36,885 bases of DNA from an uncultured Alphaproteobacteria bacterium (lineage in GTDB: Bacteria; Pseudomonadota; Alphaproteobacteria; Geminicoccales; Geminicoccaceae). The notes under the pieces were generated by a model, which had not been told where the DNA came from, ran no database searches, and saw only the letters and a program-made list of their open reading frames with translations. A program made the translations under genes and the position numbers. Location: contig CADEGR010000004.1 of the NCBI GenBank assembly GCA_902826935.1, forward strand, positions 37,577-74,461. The letters run 5' to 3'. This document shows positions 9,765 through 24,385 of the stretch, one piece after another. Every line of letters starts with the position of its first letter. The stretch's first letter is position 1.

Positions 9765-9864
9765 GGACCAAGTCCAGCTGCATCAGGGAAAAACGCTGCT
9801 GTGGACGGGAACAAATGCTCGCGAGCTGGACAATTCCGTGCTACATGATTCGAGCGATCAACTG

Positions 9865-9978
9865 GGGAGGCTGGTGCAGGACCGTAAGAGTCCGAGCCGG
9901 CATCGTGTGACCTGGCAGCGGCTTGCCGAAGTCGGGACCAGCACCTCCCTTAGCTGGTAATAATGCACCTGGGAGGTG
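9865..9978 (+). promoter_or_regulatory. Candidate structured 5' leader with alternative helices controlling the Rieske ribosome-binding site
   Basis: CCTCCC at 9944-9949 can pair in two ways. Helix B: CACCTCCC (9942-9949) with GGGAGGTG (9971-9978), a perfect 8-bp stem that hides the Shine-Dalgarno sequence of the Rieske gene (ATG 9983). Helix A: GGGAGGCTGGT (9865-9875) with ACCAG (9937-9941) plus CCTCCC, 11 bp with a 2-base bulge, which would release that ribosome site. Helix A encloses GGAC/GTCC (9879-9882/9890-9893) and GGCA/TGCC (9914-9917/9924-9927) hairpins. This mutually exclusive arrangement is typical of riboswitches and attenuators. It was found by eye, with no covariation support, and does not match a class I recognise. 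Confidence 0.4.
9874..9960 (+). CDS. Possible 28-codon leader peptide upstream of the Rieske gene
   Basis: GTG at 9874 opens a 28-codon frame ending at TAA 9958-9960. It lies just after GGGGAGG (9864-9870), only 3 nt before the GTG, which is shorter than usual. The predicted peptide begins MQDRKSPSRHR and ends TSTSLSW; it is basic and has no signal peptide. It is not a PqqA: the conserved E-x-x-x-Y pair is missing. Ribosomes translating its last codons would cover 9942-9949 and so open the helix that hides the Rieske ribosome site. The same 12 bases CAACTGGGGAGG precede this GTG (9859-9870) and the dehydrogenase start (10664-10675). Whether it is translated is unknown. Confidence 0.25.
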   Translation: MQDRKSPSRHRVTWQRLAEVGTSTSLSW

Positions 9979-9982
9979 GGCG

Positions 9983-10612
9983 ATGGCAGTGGGTCGTCCA
10001 GACGATCAAGACGGAACCGAGGAGCCTTGTGGCTGCGGGTGCGCTGATCGGCGGAGCCTGCTGCGTGGCGCCCTGGCGATCGGCCTGACGACCTCATTAC
10101 TGGGTGGCGGCGGCGAGATCTTGGCTGCCGACGATCCGAGCAAGAGCAAGCCTCAGCCCGGCGACGTCTTCGTGCATATCAAAGGCAAGCTCAAGGATCA
10201 GGTGGTGAAGGTCGAGGACCTGCCGGTTGGCGGGCCGCAGACCTTGGCCTTTCCGAAGGACCCCAAGGCCGATCTGGTGCGCAAGGGCAGCCGGCTCAAT
10301 CAGGTCGTGCTGGCGCGGTTTGCGCCCGATCAGCTGAAGGGCGAGAGCCAGAACCACTCCGCCGAGGGGGTCGTGGCCTTTTCCGCGATCTGCACCCATC
10401 AGGGCTGCCCGGTCTCGTTCTGGAAGAAGGACAAGCAGGTTTTCTACTGCTCCTGCCACGGCTCGCAGTTTGATCCGCGTGATGGCGGCAAGAAGGTGTT
10501 CGGGCCCGCCGAGCGCCGGCTCGCCATCCTGCCGGTCAAGATCGAGAATGGCACGGTGCTGGTGGCCGGCGAGTTTATCGGCACGCTCGGCCCCGCCAAG
10601 TCGAAGGCGTAG
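9983..10612 (+). CDS. Tat-exported Rieske [2Fe-2S] protein
   Basis: A 209-residue one-electron carrier. The ATG at 9983 follows GGGAGG by 6 nt; an upstream in-frame ATG at 9923 lies in the leader. The N-terminus has a twin-arginine signal (DRRSLLRGALAIGL, Arg23-Arg24), preceded by an unusual Cys cluster PCGCGC (Cys16, 18, 20). The C-terminal half holds a complete Rieske site: CTHQGC (Cys137, His139, Cys142) and CSCHGS (Cys156, Cys158, His159). Cys137/156 and His139/159 would bind the cluster and Cys142-Cys158 form the disulfide typical of high-potential bc1/arsenite-oxidase-type Rieske centres. No cytochrome b or c1 gene is nearby. It is followed after 68 bp by the quinoprotein dehydrogenase, for which it may be the electron acceptor. 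Confidence 0.92.
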   Translation: MAVGRPDDQDGTEEPCGCGCADRRSLLRGALAIGLTTSLLGGGGEILAADDPSKSKPQPGDVFVHIKGKLKDQVVKVEDLPVGGPQTLAFPKDPKADLVRKGSRLNQVVLARFAPDQLKGESQNHSAEGVVAFSAICTHQGCPVSFWKKDKQVFYCSCHGSQFDPRDGGKKVFGPAERRLAILPVKIENGTVLVAGEFIGTLGPAKSKA

Positions 10613-10680
10613 TCGCGATCGATCTAGCGCCGCAGCCGGCAAGCACGAACTGGCGCGGCGCCACAACTGGGGAGGTGTTC

Positions 10681-12384
10681 ATGAGGCTCTTGCGCAATGC
10701 GTTGGTCCTGGGCGTCGCGCTGTTTCCGCTGGCGGCCTTGGCCTATTCGCCGGTTACCGACGACCGGCTGAAGAATCCGGAGCCCGAGAACTGGCTGCAG
10801 ATCCGCGGCAACTATCAGGGCTGGATGTACAGCCCGCTCGAGCAGATCAACACCAACAACGTCAAGAACCTGGTGCCGGTCTGGAGCTACTCGACTGGCG
10901 TCGATTCCGGCCACGAGGCGCCACCGATCGTCAATGACGGCGTGATGTTCGTCGCGACGCCTTACGATCAGGTGATTGCGCTGGACGCCAAGACCGGCGA
11001 TCGCCTGTGGGTCTACAAGCGCGAGCTGCCGGAAGGCTTTGGCGCCCTGCACAACACCAAGCGCGGCATCGCCCTCTACGGCGACAAGATCTATATCGCC
11101 GCCCAAGACGCGAAGCTGGTGGCGCTCGATGCCAAGACCGGCGAGACGGTTTGGGAGAGCCCGGTCGAGGACTGGCAGACCGGCTACTATATGACCATGA
11201 CCCCCTTGATCGTGAACGGCAAGGTCATGGTCGGCGTGTCCGGCGGCGAGTTCGGCGTGCGTGGTTTCGTGCAGGCCTTCGACGCCGAAAGTGGCAAGTC
11301 CTTGTGGAAGACCTTCACGATCCCGGGACCGGGTGAGAAGGGCCATGACACCTGGACCGGCGACACCTGGCAGCGCGGCGGCGCATCGGTCTGGATGACC
11401 GGCGTCTACGATGCCGACAACAACACGACCTACTGGGGCACCGGCAACGGCTCGCCGTGGTTCGGCGATCAGCGGCCGGGCGACAACCTTTACACCTCCT
11501 CGACCGTGGCCATCAATCCGGACGACGGCAAGCTGGTCGGCCACTTCCAGTACCACTGGAACGACAGCTGGGACTGGGATGAGATGAACTCGCCCATGGT
11601 CGTCGACTACGAGAAGGACGGCAAGCAGGTCAAAGGCCTGCTGAAGGTCTCGCGCAACGGCTACATGTACTGGCTGGAGCGCAAGGACGACGGCTCGATC
11701 GGCTACGTCAACTCGATGCCGTATGTCCATCAAGACGTGTTTGCCAGCGTCGATCCGCAGACCGGCCGGCCGACCTACCACGACAACAAGAAGCCCGGCA
11801 CCGGCAAGTATGCTGATTTCTGCCCGTCACTGTGGGGCGGCAAGGACTGGCCGTACGAGGCGTTCAACCCGAAGACCGGCATGGTCTACATCCCGTCCAA
11901 CACCAACCACTGCGGTTATCTGGAAGGCAAGGAGCAGGAATATGTCGCCGGCCAGTGGTGGACCGGCGTCGACATCCCCGACATCGGCTTCACGCTGACC
12001 AAGGACGCCAGCCACTACGGCGAGATCCAGGCCCGCGACGTCAATACGGGCGAGGTCAAGTGGCAGCAGCTCTACAAGAACTCCATGAACTGGGGCTCGA
12101 TCCTGACCACCGGCGGCGGCTTGGTCTTCAATGGCGGCACCAACGACCGCTACTTCCGGGCCTATGATGCGAAGAACGGCGAGCAGCTGTGGTCGTTCCG
12201 CACCAACTCCGGGATCATGGCGCCCCCCAGCTCCTTCGAGGTGGATGGTCAGCAGTACATCGCCGTGCAGTCCGGCTGGGGCGTCGATCCGGCCTTCCAG
12301 CAGGGCCTGATGAACGAGCTGCTCGGCACCGACGTGCAGGTGCCGCAAGGCGGCGTGATCTGGGTGTTCGCCCTCGGTCAGTAG
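10681..12384 (+). CDS. PQQ-dependent alcohol-dehydrogenase-type quinoprotein (lanthanide-type motif)
   Basis: A 567-residue periplasmic eight-bladed propeller enzyme that oxidises a substrate (probably an alcohol or aldehyde) with pyrroloquinoline quinone. The ATG at 10681 has GGGGAGG ending 6 nt upstream. It has a Sec signal peptide (cleavage near ALA-YS, residue 21) and repeated propeller motifs such as ALDAKTGDRLW, ALDAKTGETVW and AYDAKNGEQLW. Active-site residues by analogy: Glu190 in SGGEFGV, Trp252/Asn256 in WGTGNG, catalytic Asp298 and Asp300 in SWDWDEMN. The D-x-D pair is the signature of lanthanide-using XoxF/ExaF enzymes; calcium MxaF has Ala at the second position. The vicinal Cys pair of MxaF/ExaA is absent: Ala122-Leu123 occupy that place. 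No cytochrome c, XoxJ/MxaJ or pqq genes are in the window. Confidence 0.93.
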   Translation: MRLLRNALVLGVALFPLAALAYSPVTDDRLKNPEPENWLQIRGNYQGWMYSPLEQINTNNVKNLVPVWSYSTGVDSGHEAPPIVNDGVMFVATPYDQVIALDAKTGDRLWVYKRELPEGFGALHNTKRGIALYGDKIYIAAQDAKLVALDAKTGETVWESPVEDWQTGYYMTMTPLIVNGKVMVGVSGGEFGVRGFVQAFDAESGKSLWKTFTIPGPGEKGHDTWTGDTWQRGGASVWMTGVYDADNNTTYWGTGNGSPWFGDQRPGDNLYTSSTVAINPDDGKLVGHFQYHWNDSWDWDEMNSPMVVDYEKDGKQVKGLLKVSRNGYMYWLERKDDGSIGYVNSMPYVHQDVFASVDPQTGRPTYHDNKKPGTGKYADFCPSLWGGKDWPYEAFNPKTGMVYIPSNTNHCGYLEGKEQEYVAGQWWTGVDIPDIGFTLTKDASHYGEIQARDVNTGEVKWQQLYKNSMNWGSILTTGGGLVFNGGTNDRYFRAYDAKNGEQLWSFRTNSGIMAPPSSFEVDGQQYIAVQSGWGVDPAFQQGLMNELLGTDVQVPQGGVIWVFALGQ

Positions 12385-12473
12385 ACCAGGACGAGCGCGG
12401 CCGGACGGGCCGGGGATTTCTGGAGCAAGGTCCGTCCGGCTGCACAGCCCAGCACCAAGGAGGGAGGGCATCG

Positions 12474-12902
12474 ATGGCAATAACGAGACTGATCACCCTG
12501 AGCGCAGCGCTGGCCGTCGGTGCTTGGACGTGGTCGGCCGCGGCGGCGGATAAGGCAGAGGTCGATCACGCCTACGCGGTCAAGGTCGAGAATGCGGCGG
12601 CCAAGGTCGGGGAGGAGACCACGATTCAGGCGCGGATCGCGGTCCAGGACGGCTACCATTTCTCGAAGGCCTACCGCAATCGCCTGATCAAGCTGTCGAC
12701 CGAGGACGATTCGGTCGCGTTTGACGATGAAGTCGTCATCGGCACGCAAGAAGGCGACGAGCTGGTCTTCAAGGTTCCGGTCAAGCCAACCAAGCCGGGC
12801 GAGCATCCGGTCAATGGCGTGTTCCGGATTGGCTTCCACAAGGATGGTCAAGTCAACATGGTCTCGGCACCGCTGATGGCGAAGGTGACCGGCACCAACT
12901 AA
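12474..12902 (+). CDS. Small secreted beta-rich protein of the PQQ-dehydrogenase unit
   Basis: A 142-residue protein starting at the ATG at 12474 after AAGGAGGGAGGG. A signal peptide (residues 1-23, ending SAAAADK) leads to a mature domain of about 118 residues made of alternating hydrophobic strands. It contains YAVKVENAAAKVGE, a central QDGYHFSKAYRNRLIKL and a final GVFRIGFHKDGQVNM. It has no Cys. The pattern is reminiscent of immunoglobulin-like periplasmic domains such as the N-terminal part of DsbD, but the match is weak and I do not recognise a named family. Its position 89 bp after the quinoprotein, before a strong hairpin, suggests it is the last gene of that unit; it could be a chaperone, docking or metal-handling partner. 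Confidence 0.8.
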   Translation: MAITRLITLSAALAVGAWTWSAAAADKAEVDHAYAVKVENAAAKVGEETTIQARIAVQDGYHFSKAYRNRLIKLSTEDDSVAFDDEVVIGTQEGDELVFKVPVKPTKPGEHPVNGVFRIGFHKDGQVNMVSAPLMAKVTGTN

Positions 12903-12920: not shown

Positions 12921-12954
12921 CGGCGGCGGTCGGCAGTGATGCCGGCCGCTGCCG
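12921..12954 (+). terminator. Strong hairpin, candidate terminator of the Rieske/PQQ-dehydrogenase unit
   Basis: Bases 12921-12934 pair with 12941-12954 to give a 14-bp stem with two G-T wobbles and a 6-base loop (AGTGAT). It lies 18 bases after the stop of the last gene in the unit. There is no T-run after it, so it may act as a Rho-assisted terminator or a 3' mRNA stabiliser rather than a classic intrinsic terminator. Confidence 0.5.
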
Positions 12955-13055: not shown

Positions 13056-13808
13056 ATGCTGCGAGCTGGCTGGCTGCTGGCGGTCGTGATCGCGTTCGGG
13101 CTGTCCAGCCAGACGGCGCTCGGCCGCTCCTTGGCTTGTCCGGAGCGGCCCCAGCCGGCGGGCAGCGCTGCCACGGCAGCGGTGGTCATCGAGCAGTGGC
13201 TGCAGCGCTACTTCACGGTGCTGGGGCTGAGCAGGGCGGTGCTGCCGGAGCGGACCGAGCTGATCGGCGTGATGCGCGGGCAGGGCAATGGGCTGCTCGA
13301 CGGGCTTGGCCAGCTCAGTCGGCGTTGCGCCCAGCTGGTCCAGCAGGAGCCGCAGGCGACCCCGGCCCAGCAACGCCGCCTGCGGGCGGAGCTCTTGACG
13401 CTGCTCTGGTCGGCGGCGCCGGAGGGCCCCGCGGCCGCGGCCCGGCCCGCCCGTCTCGCGGCGATCGAGCAGGCGATCGGCCTGACGCCCGCAGAGCTCT
13501 GGCGCCGGCTCTGGTACCGCGATCCCAGCCAGCCGCTGGGCGAAGCCAGCCGCTGGGCCGCGATCGTCGCCTCGCCGGCGACCGAGGCCGCCGGCTACGA
13601 GCTGCTGCAAGCCTATCAGCGCCGCTGGCCTGCGGTGCATTTCGAGCTGCAGCCGCCCTATCGCGCCGGGGCGCCGCTGGCGCTGATCATCGGCCGCCGC
13701 CTGAGCCAGGCGAATGCTATCAAGCTCCTCGACCTGGCGCGCGTGCTGGGTCTGCCGGCCGATGCTTTCATCTGGCCGGTGCCGATCGGCGCCGAGGTCG
13801 CCGGCTAG
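13056..13808 (+). CDS. Secreted protein with C-terminal SPOR-like domain, paralogue A
   Basis: A 250-residue protein. Residues 1-23 are a signal peptide. The mature N-terminal region (about 25-165) is helical, with two Cys (ACPERPQ at the start and RRCAQL near 95). The C-terminal 80 residues resemble a SPOR/RNP-like fold: RWAAIVASPATEAAGYELL, RRWPAVHFELQPPY, LALIIGRRLSQANAIKLL, and FIWPVP at the end. It shares this domain and a similar N-terminal layout with the next gene, so the two are tandem paralogues. SPOR domains bind denuded peptidoglycan, but whether this one does is inference. The ATG at 13056 follows GGGGAGTGGC. I know of no named family for the whole protein. Confidence 0.75.
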   Translation: MLRAGWLLAVVIAFGLSSQTALGRSLACPERPQPAGSAATAAVVIEQWLQRYFTVLGLSRAVLPERTELIGVMRGQGNGLLDGLGQLSRRCAQLVQQEPQATPAQQRRLRAELLTLLWSAAPEGPAAAARPARLAAIEQAIGLTPAELWRRLWYRDPSQPLGEASRWAAIVASPATEAAGYELLQAYQRRWPAVHFELQPPYRAGAPLALIIGRRLSQANAIKLLDLARVLGLPADAFIWPVPIGAEVAG

Positions 13809-13930: not shown

Positions 13931-14755
13931 GTGGTTGTTCGCAGTTGGCTCGCGGCCGGGCTCGCCTTGCTGATGTCGAGCGCCGCGTCTGCGCAGGTGG
14001 TCGAATGTCCGGGCTCGGTGCCGGTCATGCAGATGTCCAAGGAGCGGGCGGCGGCCACGGCCGAGCGGCTGCTCGACCGGTTCGTCGGCGCGCTAGGCTT
14101 GCGCGGCGTCAAGGCCGTCGACCAGGCGGCGGTGCTCAAGGCCTATGGCGAGCTGCCGGAGCAGCTCCTGGTCAAGCTGCAATATCTGGCGCTGCAATGC
14201 GGCATGCTGGTGCTGAGCGGCCCGTCTGAGCTGGCCGAGCGGCAGGCGATCATCCGGCGCGTGTTCCTCGACTATGCGCTCTCGCCGCCGGCCACCGGCA
14301 ATGTCGATCTGGCGTCCTATCTCAATCAGACGGCTTCGGCTGGCACCGGCATCCCGAAGGATCCAAAGCTCGCCCAGCTGGTCAAGGCGGCCGAGCAGCA
14401 ACAGCAGCAGCTGCCGAGCGCTGCCTGGCATACCGCTTGGTTCCGGCCAGCCGGCGCCTTGCAGGATGATCCGAATCGCTGGGCCGTGATCGTCGCCTCG
14501 CCCGAGACCGAGAACGAGGGCTGGACCATGCTACGCGAGCATCAGGCCCGCTGGCCGAAGGTCCATTTCGAGCTGCATGCGCCCTATGATCCCGACAGCC
14601 CGACCTATGCTCTGGTGGTTGGCCGGCGGCTGCCGGAAGGAGATGCGCGCAGCTTGCTCGAGAGCGTCAAGCGGGACGGCCTGGCGCCGGACAGCTTCGT
14701 CTGGCAGCTGCCGCCGGGCGAGGACGTCGGCCAGATTGCGCGCGCCCAGCCGTAG
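13931..14755 (+). CDS. Secreted protein with C-terminal SPOR-like domain, paralogue B
   Basis: A 274-residue protein from a GTG at 13931 with AGGGGGAAAA just upstream. Signal peptide ends SAASAQV (about residue 22). The mature part has the same layout as its upstream neighbour: VECPGS near the start, a second Cys in ALQCGM, a helical middle, then RWAVIVASPETENEGWTML, RWPKVHFELHAPY, YALVVGRRLPEGDA and FVWQLP. Identity between the two is highest in this C-terminal 80 residues. A short Gln run (EQQQQQL) precedes that domain. The gap of 122 bp from the upstream copy leaves room for its own promoter. Function unknown; a periplasmic role linked to peptidoglycan or a partner protein is plausible. 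Confidence 0.77.
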   Translation: MVVRSWLAAGLALLMSSAASAQVVECPGSVPVMQMSKERAAATAERLLDRFVGALGLRGVKAVDQAAVLKAYGELPEQLLVKLQYLALQCGMLVLSGPSELAERQAIIRRVFLDYALSPPATGNVDLASYLNQTASAGTGIPKDPKLAQLVKAAEQQQQQLPSAAWHTAWFRPAGALQDDPNRWAVIVASPETENEGWTMLREHQARWPKVHFELHAPYDPDSPTYALVVGRRLPEGDARSLLESVKRDGLAPDSFVWQLPPGEDVGQIARAQP

Positions 14756-14768
14756 GCGCAGACGGCGC

Positions 14769-16091
14769 TCAGTGGAGCTTTAGTTCCGGCTGGGTGCCGC
14801 GGATGAAGAGGCGGGCCAGCACGGTCTTGATGGTCCAGAGCAGCCCGTGCAGCGCCATCTGGTGCTTGCGGTAAAGCGACAGATAGGTCAGACGCGCGAC
14901 GATGCCCTCGACCATCCAGCTGCCGAACAGATTGCCCATCAGATTGCCGACCACGCTGTAGCTGAGCGAGACCAGCGAGCCATAGTCCTTGTAGACGAAC
15001 GGCTGCGGCGGCTGGTGGCGCAGGCGCCGTGCCAGCGTGTCGGCCAGGGCATAGGCTTCCTGGTACGCCGCCTGGGCGCGCGGCGGCACCGGCCGGCTTG
15101 CGCCCGGCTGCGGACAGGCGGCGCAGTCGCCGAGCGCGAAGATCGCCTCATCACGGGTGGTGCGCAGGCTCTGCTCGACCACCAGCTGGCCAATCCGGTT
15201 GGTCTCGAGCCCGTCGAGCTGGGTGGTGAAGGCGGGCGCCTTGACGCCGGCGCACCAGATCTTGATCTCCGACGCGATGCGGTGGCCGCTCTTGGTCAGG
15301 ACGGCTTCAGGGGTGACCTCGGTGACCTGCTCGTTGGTCAGGAGCTCGATGCCGAGCTTGTCGAGCTGCTGCTCGGTCGCATCCTGGAGCCGGCGTGACA
15401 GCGCCGGCAGGACCGTAGGTGCCGCCTCGATCAGGGTCAGCTTGACGTCGTGCTCGCGATCGATCCGGTCCAAGCCGTAGGCGACCAGCTCGCGGGTCGA
15501 GCGATGCAGCTCGGCGGCCAGCTCGACGCCGGTGGCACCGGCGCCGATGATCGCGATGTGCAGCTGGCCTGGCCTGAGCGGACCAGGCTGGACCTGGGCG
15601 CGCAGGAAGTCGTGCAGCAGGCGCTGCTGCAGATCCTCGGCCTGGCGCTGATTGTCCAGGAAGATGCAATTCTCGGCCACGCCCGGCACGCCGAAATCAT
15701 TGGCCGTGCTGCCGACCGCCAGGACCAGCGTGTCGTAGTCGAACGCCCGGCTCGGCACCAGCTCACGGCCGTGGATGTCACGCACCGGCGCCAGCCAGAT
15801 CTGCTTCTTGGCCCGGTCCAGACCCGCCATCTCGCCCTGCATGAAGCGAAAATGATGCGCCTTGGCGTGGCTCAGATAGCCGACGCTGTCGAAATCGGCA
15901 TTGAGCGTGCCGGCGGCGATCTCGTGCAGCAGCGGCTTCCAGACATGGGTCAGGCTCTGGTCGACCAGCGTGATCCGGGCCCGCTTCTGCCGGCCGAGCC
16001 GCCGGCCTAGCACCGTCGCCAGCACCAGGCCGCCGGCGCCGCCGCCGACCACGACGATATGGTGCAGCGGGGGTAGGGCAGTCTCGGTCAT
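14769..16091 (-). CDS. ndh: Type II NADH dehydrogenase (NDH-2)
   Basis: A 440-residue peripheral inner-membrane flavoprotein that passes electrons from NADH to quinone without pumping protons. Two Rossmann dinucleotide sites are clear: IVVVGGGAGGLVLAT at the start (FAD) and IAIIGAGATGVELAAEL near residue 165 (NADH). Further family marks are YDTLVLAVGS, WCAGVKA and ALGDCAACPQ. The C-terminal 100 residues (YGSLVSLSYSVVGNLMG and after) form the amphipathic membrane anchor. ATG at 16091 (MTETALPP) has a weak GGA 8-10 nt upstream; an ATG at 16103 would add four residues. It is divergent from zur. This gives the cell an uncoupled entry of electrons into the quinone pool. Confidence 0.93.
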   Translation of the reverse strand: MTETALPPLHHIVVVGGGAGGLVLATVLGRRLGRQKRARITLVDQSLTHVWKPLLHEIAAGTLNADFDSVGYLSHAKAHHFRFMQGEMAGLDRAKKQIWLAPVRDIHGRELVPSRAFDYDTLVLAVGSTANDFGVPGVAENCIFLDNQRQAEDLQQRLLHDFLRAQVQPGPLRPGQLHIAIIGAGATGVELAAELHRSTRELVAYGLDRIDREHDVKLTLIEAAPTVLPALSRRLQDATEQQLDKLGIELLTNEQVTEVTPEAVLTKSGHRIASEIKIWCAGVKAPAFTTQLDGLETNRIGQLVVEQSLRTTRDEAIFALGDCAACPQPGASRPVPPRAQAAYQEAYALADTLARRLRHQPPQPFVYKDYGSLVSLSYSVVGNLMGNLFGSWMVEGIVARLTYLSLYRKHQMALHGLLWTIKTVLARLFIRGTQPELKLH

Positions 16092-16259
16092 GAGGGGGTC
16101 CATCTGGTCGGCCGCGCGGCGCGCGCGGCAGGGTCAAGCCCAGGCATGCAGGAGCAATGCCAGCAAGGTCCGCCACTCGCAACCGGCAAATCGGAATGGC
16201 AGCCTTGCGCCGTTTCAAGCCCTGGCCCTGGCTGCGGCGGGCGAAGCTGGCAAGCGCGG

Positions 16260-16295: not shown

Positions 16296-16820
16296 ATGGA
16301 GCAGGATGGCATGGCTGGCAGCAGCGACGTCCAGGCGCGGCCGGCGGCATCGGGCGCCCGCCATGATCATGGCCGATGCATCGATGCCGCGCTGGCGCGG
16401 GCCGCGGCGCTCTGCGCGCGCCGCGGGGCGCGCCTGACCAGCCTGCGCCGCCGGGTGCTCGAGCTGGTCTGGCAGGATCATGCGGCGGTCAAGGCCTATG
16501 ATCTCCTCAAGGTGCTGGACCGCGAGGGCGGCCAGACCAAGCCGCCCACGGTCTATCGGGCGCTCGATTTCCTGATCGCCCATGGCCTGGTGCATCGGCT
16601 GGAAAGCCTGAACGCCTTCATCGGCTGCCCGGCGCCGGAGCCGAGCCACAGCGGCCAGTTCCTGATCTGCGGCAAATGCGGCGATGTGGTGGAGTTCGAA
16701 GCGCCCGAGATCGCGGCTGCGCTCGAGACCGAGGCGGCCGCTCGCCACTTCACGATCGTGCGGCGCACCATCGAGGTCCATGGCCTATGCGCCGCGTGCA
16801 CGGGCGCGGGGCACGCCTGA
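16296..16820 (+). CDS. zur: Fur-family zinc uptake regulator Zur
   Basis: A 174-residue dimeric DNA-binding repressor. The winged helix lies at about residues 35-95 (RLTSLRRRVLELVW, KAYDLLKVL, KPPTVYRALDFLIAHGLVHRL). The dimer domain carries the structural zinc pairs CGKC (in FLICGKCGDV) and CAAC near the C-terminus, as in Zur/Fur proteins. An N-terminal HDHGRC adds possible metal ligands. The identification as Zur rather than Fur follows from linkage: it is 1 bp upstream of znuC. ATG at 16296 and ATG at 16311 are both usable; AGGA lies 4 nt before the second. The protein should repress znuCB when zinc is plentiful. Confidence 0.92.
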   Translation: MEQDGMAGSSDVQARPAASGARHDHGRCIDAALARAAALCARRGARLTSLRRRVLELVWQDHAAVKAYDLLKVLDREGGQTKPPTVYRALDFLIAHGLVHRLESLNAFIGCPAPEPSHSGQFLICGKCGDVVEFEAPEIAAALETEAAARHFTIVRRTIEVHGLCAACTGAGHA

Positions 16821-16821
16821 C

Positions 16822-17644
<823 letters not shown>

Positions 17645-17655
<11 letters not shown>

Positions 17656-18454
17656 TTTCCTGGTGCGCGCCATGCTGGGCGGCGTCGGCGTGGCCTTGGT
17701 GGCCGGACCGCTCGGCTGCGTCGTGGTGTGGCGGCGCATGGCATATTTCGGCGGCGCGCTCGCCCACAGCGCGCTGCTCGGCGTGGCCCTGGGGCTCCTG
17801 CTGGCGATCGACATCAGGCTGGCGACCCTGGCGATCTGCGTGCTGTTCGCGTTGCTCCTGGGGCGGCTGCAGCGCCGCCGTGAGCTGGCGACCGACACGC
17901 TGCTCGGGGTGTTCGCCGAAACCTCGCTGGCGCTGGGCCTGGTGGCGCTGAGCTTCATGGAGACCGTGCGGATCGATCTGATGGCCTATCTGTTCGGCGA
18001 CGTGCTGGCGATCGGCCGTGGCGATCTGCTCTGGATCTGGGTAGGCGGCCTCGCAGTCCTGGCGGCGCTGGCGGCGCTCTGGGAGCCGCTCTTGCGGATC
18101 ACGCTGCATGCCGAGCTGGCCCAGGCCGAAGGGCTCGCGGTCGAGCCGGTGCGCTACGCCTTCATGCTGCTGATCGCGCTGACCGTGGCGATGGCCATGA
18201 AGATCGTCGGCATCCTTTTGATCGTGGCGCTCCTGATCATCCCGGCGGCGGCCGCGCGGCCCTTCGCGCGCAATCCGGAGCAGATGGCCCTGGCCACGGC
18301 GGCGCTGGGCGCCTTGGCCGTGGCGCTCGGCATCTTCGGCTCGCTCACCTTCGATACCCCGTCCGGCCCCTCGATCGTGGTCGCGATGGCCAGCCTGTTC
18401 GGGCTGAGCCTCTGCCTTGGCGGCCTGCGGCTGATGGGCCGGCGCGTCGGCTAG
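17645..18454 (+). CDS. znuB: Zinc ABC transporter permease ZnuB
   Basis: A 269-residue inner-membrane permease of the ABC-3 family, with about eight hydrophobic segments. Family marks include GCVVVWRRMAYFGGALAHSALLGVALG near the N-terminus and the cytosolic coupling region with HAELAQAEGLAVEPVRYAFMLL. ATG at 17645 overlaps znuC, indicating translational coupling. No gene for the periplasmic zinc-binding protein ZnuA is present in the window, so it must be elsewhere if the system is complete. The gene end overlaps the converging lipoprotein gene by 4 bases. Confidence 0.94.
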
Positions 18455-23851: not shown

Positions 23852-24385
23852 ATGCGGCAATTGTCCAAGCATGCGGCGGCGGCGGTCTGCTGCCTCACTG
23901 GCTGGCTGGCTGGATCAGCGCAGGCCGAGGAGGCCAAGCCGGCGCCACCGGCCAAGGGGCTGACCGAGCTGGTCCTGCCGATGCTGAATCCAGAGGCGGG
24001 CCGGCAGCTGTTCGTGCGCAAGGGCTGCTTCATCTGCCATTCTGTGCACGGCGTCGGCGGCCAAGCCGCACCAGCCTTGGACGCGCCGGCTGGCAACCAC
24101 CGGCTCGATCTGATGGACTTCACGGCCCGCATGTGGCGCGGCGCGCCGGCGATGCTGGAGCTGCAGATGCGCGAGCTTGGCTACCGGATCGAGCTATCGG
24201 GACCGGAAATCGCCCATCTCGCCGCGTTCCTGGCTGCCCCCGAGGTGCAAGCCGAGTTCGGCCAGGAGGAGATTCCGGAAGCGCTGCGCGACTGGCAGCT
24301 GCAGGAGCCCTACTGGCTGCGCGACAATTGGCCGGACTTCAAGTCGGAGTTCGATAGCGACGGCGTGCCTTACGACTATCGTTGA
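23852..24385 (+). CDS. Periplasmic monohaem cytochrome c (class I)
   Basis: A 177-residue exported protein, with AAGGAG 10 nt before the ATG. Signal peptide ends near SAQAEEA (residue 26). One haem-binding motif is present, CFICH, in GRQLFVRKGCFICHSVHGVGG, with the usual GxxLFxxKGC context. A plausible distal Met is in FTARMWRGAPAM. After the haem domain comes a C-terminal tail of about 50 residues (EALRDWQLQEPYWLRDNWP) that is not part of the standard fold. It would carry electrons in the periplasm. No oxidase or dehydrogenase gene is adjacent, but the quinoprotein 11 kb away lacks a linked cytochrome and this could serve it; that is speculation. Confidence 0.85.
   Translation: MRQLSKHAAAAVCCLTGWLAGSAQAEEAKPAPPAKGLTELVLPMLNPEAGRQLFVRKGCFICHSVHGVGGQAAPALDAPAGNHRLDLMDFTARMWRGAPAMLELQMRELGYRIELSGPEIAHLAAFLAAPEVQAEFGQEEIPEALRDWQLQEPYWLRDNWPDFKSEFDSDGVPYDYR

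Follow-up and report, generated by a model that had tools for sequence, protein, structure and literature searches.

The DNA analyzed here (the window) is a stretch of 36,885 nucleotides from an uncultured alphaproteobacterium (assembly GCA_902826935.1, contig CADEGR010000004.1, positions 37,577 to 74,461). It forms part of contig C4 of a 4.77 Mb genome in 289 contigs, the nearest named relatives of which are Geminicoccaceae (Alphaproteobacteria). The + strand at 9983-12902 encodes, in this order, a Rieske iron-sulfur protein, a pyrroloquinoline quinone (PQQ)-dependent alcohol dehydrogenase and a small protein, all exported and each with its own purine-rich ribosome site (GGGAGG, GGGGAGG and AGGAGGGAGG, respectively), as the original prediction made from the DNA letters had described. 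Textbooks pair the PQQ alcohol dehydrogenases of the TIGR03075 family with cytochrome c. The predicted lack of a linked cytochrome c is borne out in the window, where the sole called protein with a heme-binding CxxCH motif (23852-24385) lies more than 10 kb from the three genes. We consider it probable that, in a distinct quinoprotein clade to which this dehydrogenase belongs, the exported Rieske protein takes the place of cytochrome c as direct electron acceptor, enzyme and Rieske protein forming a periplasmic alcohol-oxidizing module. The features of the locus are as follows.

9983..10612, + strand: Rieske [2Fe-2S] protein, 209 amino acids (Pfam PF00355, 38.5 bits against a cut-off of 20.3)
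10681..12384, + strand: PQQ-dependent alcohol dehydrogenase, 567 amino acids, Sec-type signal (TIGR03075, 577.3 bits against a cut-off of 480.05)
12397..12443, + strand: hairpin between the dehydrogenase and small protein genes, 15-nt arms, z = -3.2
12474..12902, + strand: small exported protein, 142 amino acids, predicted immunoglobulin-like beta-sandwich (alignment A2)
about 12921-12954, + strand: GC-rich hairpin 3' of the small protein gene, 15-bp stem with tetraloop, no T run, z = -4.35

The N-terminus of the Rieske protein carries a twin-arginine translocation (Tat)-type signal, RRSLLRGALAIG, with a CGCGC motif just before it. A CxC motif ahead of the twin arginines occurs in 28 of the 74 Rieske proteins from the linked loci described below (CGCGCADRR in the window, 10025-10058). 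The four cluster ligands (Cys137/His139 and Cys156/His159) and the disulfide cysteines Cys142/Cys158, which the original prediction had likewise recognized, are all invariant in a 32-row alignment (A4) and are kept by nearly all 74 proteins, one of which (L111) has an apparent frameshift, and this conservation points to a working [2Fe-2S] cluster. In the Rokubacteria contigs L138 and L111 the Rieske gene is split or frameshifted, through sequencing error or decay.

The nearest solved structure is the Rieske protein of the Thermus thermophilus bc complex (phmmer, 7.5e-41), and the AlphaFold model (mean predicted local distance difference test score, pLDDT, 87.5) superposes on it with a template modeling (TM) score of 0.94 at 42% identity (1nyk); AioB, the Rieske subunit of arsenite oxidase, is structurally farther away. 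The protein scores below the cut-offs of both TIGR01416, the cytochrome bc1 Rieske family (46.2 bits, cut-off 97.4), and TIGR02694, the AioB family (57.9 bits, cut-off 95.65), and the adjoining gene encodes the PQQ dehydrogenase, with no AioA. No cytochrome b was found among the neighbors of the Rieske gene. A complete bc1 operon (Rieske, cytochrome b and heme-bearing c1) lies apart from the window on contig C51 of the host genome, and since this operon has a Rieske protein of its own, the window protein was ruled out as the host bc1 subunit.

The dehydrogenase exceeds the TIGR03075 cut-off, as do eight distant members of its clade. Among solved enzymes it is closest to 6zcv and 6zcw, which carry the annotation quinoprotein ethanol dehydrogenase and which we take to be PedH; assignment as a XoxF/MxaF methanol dehydrogenase was ruled out because the closest solved enzymes are of the PedH type and not XoxF. 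Residues E190, N256, D298 and R325 (PQQ/metal-binding and catalytic) align with PedH 6zcv and are conserved in the clade. The second Asp of a DxD motif is a mark of lanthanide quinoproteins; its presence here (D298/D300, WDWDEMN versus WDFDGVN in PedH) suggests, at the level of a sequence motif, that a lanthanide may be the metal. One subclade of dehydrogenases has WDWA in place of WDWD. The second-best family match was TIGR04528 (acido-empty-quinoprotein group A), at 371.6 bits below its cut-off of 650, and this score together with the kept cofactor-site residues rules out an empty (PQQ-free) quinoprotein.

A vicinal disulfide beside PQQ is a hallmark of the family, and its role in electron transfer is debated. 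Where PedH has PCCDVINRG the window enzyme has ALHNTKRG, the C381/C411 pair being kept. The vicinal Cys-Cys is absent from every clade member in which this stretch is aligned (96-locus check, L101 uncovered), HxTxRG standing in its place in the clade, and yet the PQQ/metal-binding and catalytic residues are retained across the clade. Loss of the disulfide in this clade suggests that the route out of PQQ may have changed. The original prediction's placement of the enzyme in the MxaF/XoxF/ExaA group needs refining, since the enzyme falls in a separate clade that lacks this hallmark.

The pairing of the two genes is conserved. A search of 61 genomes found the Rieske protein in nine, including the host, with the dehydrogenase beside it in 9/9, and a class-wide sample of 385 genomes contained 11 with the Rieske protein, among them seven new to the set, all seven with the dehydrogenase close by. 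One genome per species (84,980 species) was then scanned with a dehydrogenase alignment, yielding 390 relatives, the best 80 of which were kept. After dereplication there were 91 loci, and a Rieske gene lies within 1.5 kb of the dehydrogenase in 74 of them (the Rieske-linked loci), nearly always directly upstream. The adjacency in relatives by which the original prediction was to be checked is therefore found both in the family and across phyla. The loci span Alpha-, Beta- and Gammaproteobacteria as well as Rokubacteria, Binatota, Gemmatimonadota and Myxococcota (the last four as metagenome-assembled genomes), and named hosts include Methylobacterium, Bradyrhizobium, Hyphomicrobium, Azoarcus, Zoogloea, Pseudoxanthomonas, Hydrocarboniphaga, Neptuniibacter and Skermanella; the outer neighbors of the pair differ. 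In the reverse direction, all 20 Rieske matches tested lie beside a clade dehydrogenase. In four of the 17 genomes whose dehydrogenase locus lacks an adjacent Rieske gene, a strong Rieske homolog is encoded elsewhere, in all four beside another clade dehydrogenase (in L199 only the start of that dehydrogenase is covered).

As controls, 25 other PQQ dehydrogenases, five from the host genome and 20 from the same class, were examined alike. A heme-c open reading frame (CxxCH in a predicted gene) occurs within two genes at 3/74 Rieske-linked loci, while in 19/25 controls heme is fused to the enzyme or a heme-c gene lies equally close, so that the cytochrome c which the original prediction had proposed to look for just outside such units is rare there. 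The vicinal Cys-Cys is present in 22 of the control dehydrogenases, none of the 25 has a Rieske neighbor, and four of the five other host enzymes have a cytochrome c nearby. Fisher p values for clade versus controls are about 2e-12 (heme) and 1.6e-14 (Rieske), to be read as descriptive since relatedness is ignored. In the phylogenetic tree the dehydrogenases lacking Cys-Cys form one clade apart from the controls (Shimodaira-Hasegawa-like approximate likelihood ratio test support of the branch, 100). With the clade rooted on the 25 divergent controls in a quick tree search, the deepest forks are Rieske-linked members and the unlinked ones fall mostly in one inner subclade, which fits an ancestral pairing with later loss. 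The Rieske and dehydrogenase distance matrices correlate (r = 0.78 over 72 pairs, permutation maximum 0.10), a result that speaks for the proposed pairing although shared descent contributes to it.

Many of the loci also carry genes for aldehyde oxidation. In most Geminicoccaceae relatives the cluster extends beyond the Rieske protein, dehydrogenase and small protein to an IorAB-like pair, made up of a [2Fe-2S] protein and a Tat-type molybdenum aldehyde oxidoreductase, and a DctM transporter gene often comes next. Genes for organic-acid transporters (DctM, TAXI/NMT1-like and others) were seen near the operon in the flanks of the Geminicoccaceae loci L019, L020 and L021. The host counterpart of this IorAB pair is unlinked, on contig C89 (L043:6335-9137), with a large subunit 62% identical to that of the relatives' operon IorAB and no neighboring cytochrome c; another host IorAB, on contig C24, has a CxxCH protein after it. 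Overall, IorAB or AldA lies near 28/74 Rieske-linked loci. Elsewhere an AldA-like neighbor was found in 14 loci (two members tested score 760-766 bits with NF007497, cut-off 500) and IorAB in 13. In Hyphomicrobium (L083) the cluster is flanked by pyruvate dehydrogenase and, at its opposite end, by lactate permease, a LutA-like protein and LutB. Such neighbors suggest a sequence from alcohol via aldehyde to acid, and their presence in many hosts makes a short alcohol or diol the probable substrate, with 1,2-propanediol and ethylene glycol as plausible candidates in hosts so equipped.

We propose that the dehydrogenase, using PQQ and a metal, would oxidize an alcohol, and that the Rieske center would re-oxidize PQQH2 in two one-electron steps and feed the electrons into the general respiratory chain. 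The aldehyde so formed may in many hosts be oxidized further by the neighboring IorAB, which is without a cytochrome c of its own, or by AldA. The best reading is that the Rieske protein acts as a dedicated one-electron acceptor of the clade dehydrogenases, working like AioB. In arsenite oxidase the Rieske subunit connects the catalytic one with cytochrome c (PMC5574378), and as for AioB the likeliest next carrier would be a soluble c-type cytochrome. We further favor, somewhat less firmly than the replacement of cytochrome c itself, the view that the dehydrogenases of this clade, which spans phyla and lacks the vicinal disulfide, are held in a stable, AioAB-like quinoprotein-Rieske complex. 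Next to separate cytochromes c and fused heme domains, this would be a third acceptor solution, by which electrons from alcohols would enter the respiratory chain through an iron-sulfur center.

Several observations weigh against a Rieske acceptor. The heme test registers CxxCH in predicted genes only, and the true acceptor could be a cytochrome c encoded elsewhere, of which the host has many. The loci were collected by a query made from Rieske-linked dehydrogenases, and 17 of the 91 have no adjacent Rieske gene; a few of these are contig edges and most belong to an acidobacterial/gemmatimonad subclade, so that the dehydrogenase can apparently work without an adjacent Rieske protein. The correlation of distances is partly due to shared descent. 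Adjacency, moreover, demonstrates functional linkage and says nothing of the direction or path of electrons. Clade members without an adjacent Rieske gene were noted at L105, L109, L118, L127, L137, L142 and related Acidobacteria/Gemmatimonadota loci, and some Rieske-free clade dehydrogenases are a second copy in genomes with a Rieske-linked one.

In one alternative, an unlinked cytochrome c takes the electrons of the dehydrogenase while the Rieske protein serves a neighbor, such as IorAB, or is a side carrier. In its favor are the 13 loci with IorAB in the cluster, the many soluble c-type cytochromes of the host genome, and the acidobacterial/gemmatimonad subclade, which mostly has the dehydrogenase without an adjacent Rieske gene. 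We nevertheless regard it as unlikely, because IorAB is missing from the vicinity in the majority of the 74 Rieske-linked loci and the Rieske gene still stays with the dehydrogenase, as it does in the host, where IorAB is on another contig, and because the vicinal disulfide was lost clade-wide. That the Rieske protein instead serves the dehydrogenase in assembly, stability or redox protection and is no electron carrier is conceivable in that the altered loop at the former disulfide might need a partner protein, but the idea is improbable given the invariance of the four ligands and disulfide cysteines in A4 and their retention in nearly all 74 proteins. Membership in a bc-type complex, as a spare or alternative QcrA next to the dehydrogenase by chance, agrees with the Thermus protein being the nearest solved relative; the sub-threshold TIGR01416 score, the lack of a cytochrome b beside the gene, the complete bc1 operon on C51 and an adjacency to the dehydrogenase kept across phyla make it very improbable. 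Chance or hitch-hiking of neighboring genes, a general possibility that applies to any neighbors, has a negligible probability and is refuted by 74/91 loci in several phyla with differing outer neighbors against 0/25 controls with a Rieske gene.

The small third protein matched nothing in Pfam and NCBIfam searches. Its structure model (pLDDT 84) has distant matches to the SOQ1 C-terminal domain, YcnI and nDsbD, in keeping with the beta-rich fold that the original prediction had assigned to it. Its proposed part as a general partner does not hold, however: homologs (36-39% identical to the window protein within the family) are restricted, in the locus set examined, to Geminicoccaceae/HR40-like loci, with none in the others, and a different small protein fills the third-gene slot in a few loci. 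A universal docking partner is therefore ruled out. An accessory role is likely; docking would be a guess.

The hairpin 3' of the small protein gene is real, with a stem one base pair longer than the 14 bp first proposed, and is possibly the operon end or an mRNA 3' end. The structured leader claimed upstream was not substantiated, as 9765-9985 folds like shuffled sequence (z = -0.14) and has no Rfam match, which also rules out a riboswitch. The upstream neighbor, a pyridoxal phosphate enzyme gene, ends 218 bases 5' of the Rieske gene. Directly 3' of the operon, 13056-13808 and 13931-14755 encode tandem related exported proteins that are 31% identical and belong to no known Pfam family, followed on the - strand by a pyridine nucleotide-disulphide oxidoreductase (14769-16103), possibly a type II NADH dehydrogenase. 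A Fur/Zur-like regulator and then an ATP-binding cassette (ABC) ATPase and permease occupy 16296-18454, probably what we take to be a zinc uptake operon. Elsewhere in the host, a pqqD gene near another PQQ dehydrogenase (contig C47) indicates that the organism probably makes PQQ. Host contig C71 (L209) bears a resemblance to a denitrification/heme d1 cluster, with a COX1-family oxidase/NorB-like gene, heme-c proteins and several short genes of regulator-like type. In one Porticoccaceae locus a TonB-dependent receptor gene (L102:5931-8051), which could serve metal or PQQ uptake, is divergent from the Rieske gene, and the related loci L103, L104, L124 and L133 have divergent genes of similar size.

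We found no open-access paper describing a Rieske-PQQ dehydrogenase pairing (preprints and subscription papers were outside the scope of the search), and a Mesorhizobium paper on two Rieske proteins (PMC6256036) was ruled out as a precedent because it concerns bc1 clusters only. Our results point to an electron route from the PQQ alcohol dehydrogenase family that is as yet undescribed. With the disulfide lost and a Rieske partner gained, this large natural clade allows the disulfide's purpose to be tested directly. If the proposal is true, it would add a new, possibly lanthanide-dependent electron route from alcohols into the respiration of many bacteria, provide a new donor-acceptor pair for bioelectrodes and give a better name to genes that are likely annotated as stray bc1 Rieske subunits.

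Among known systems, canonical cytochrome-c-linked quinoprotein alcohol dehydrogenases combine the vicinal Cys-Cys with a fused or adjacent cytochrome c, whereas the window enzyme has neither. The lanthanide ethanol dehydrogenase PedH/ExaF (6zcv, 6zcw) shares its fold, its TIGR03075 membership and the aligned E, N, D and R residues with DxD; the window enzyme differs in having ALHNTKRG in place of the Cys-Cys, in falling in a clade separate from the control dehydrogenases, and in having a Rieske protein rather than a cytochrome c as neighboring carrier. The acido-empty quinoproteins of group A (TIGR04528) have the same propeller; the window enzyme scores below their cut-off and keeps the cofactor-site residues. 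Molybdenum aldehyde dehydrogenases of the IorAB type that possess a cytochrome c subunit have IorAB homologs in the relatives' extended operon, but the operon IorAB is without a cytochrome c gene, unlike the host C24 pair. The Thermus bc-complex Rieske protein (1nyk, 3fou) is co-linear with the window protein over 152-154 residues, whereas the window gene has no linked cytochrome b, travels with a PQQ dehydrogenase and occurs in a host with another, bc1-linked Rieske protein. AioAB likewise joins a periplasmic catalytic subunit to a Rieske protein, from which electrons go to cytochrome c or azurin (PMC5574378); at the locus described here the catalytic part is a PQQ propeller instead of a molybdenum enzyme, and the Rieske protein, below the AioB cut-off, is nearer to that of the Thermus bc complex.

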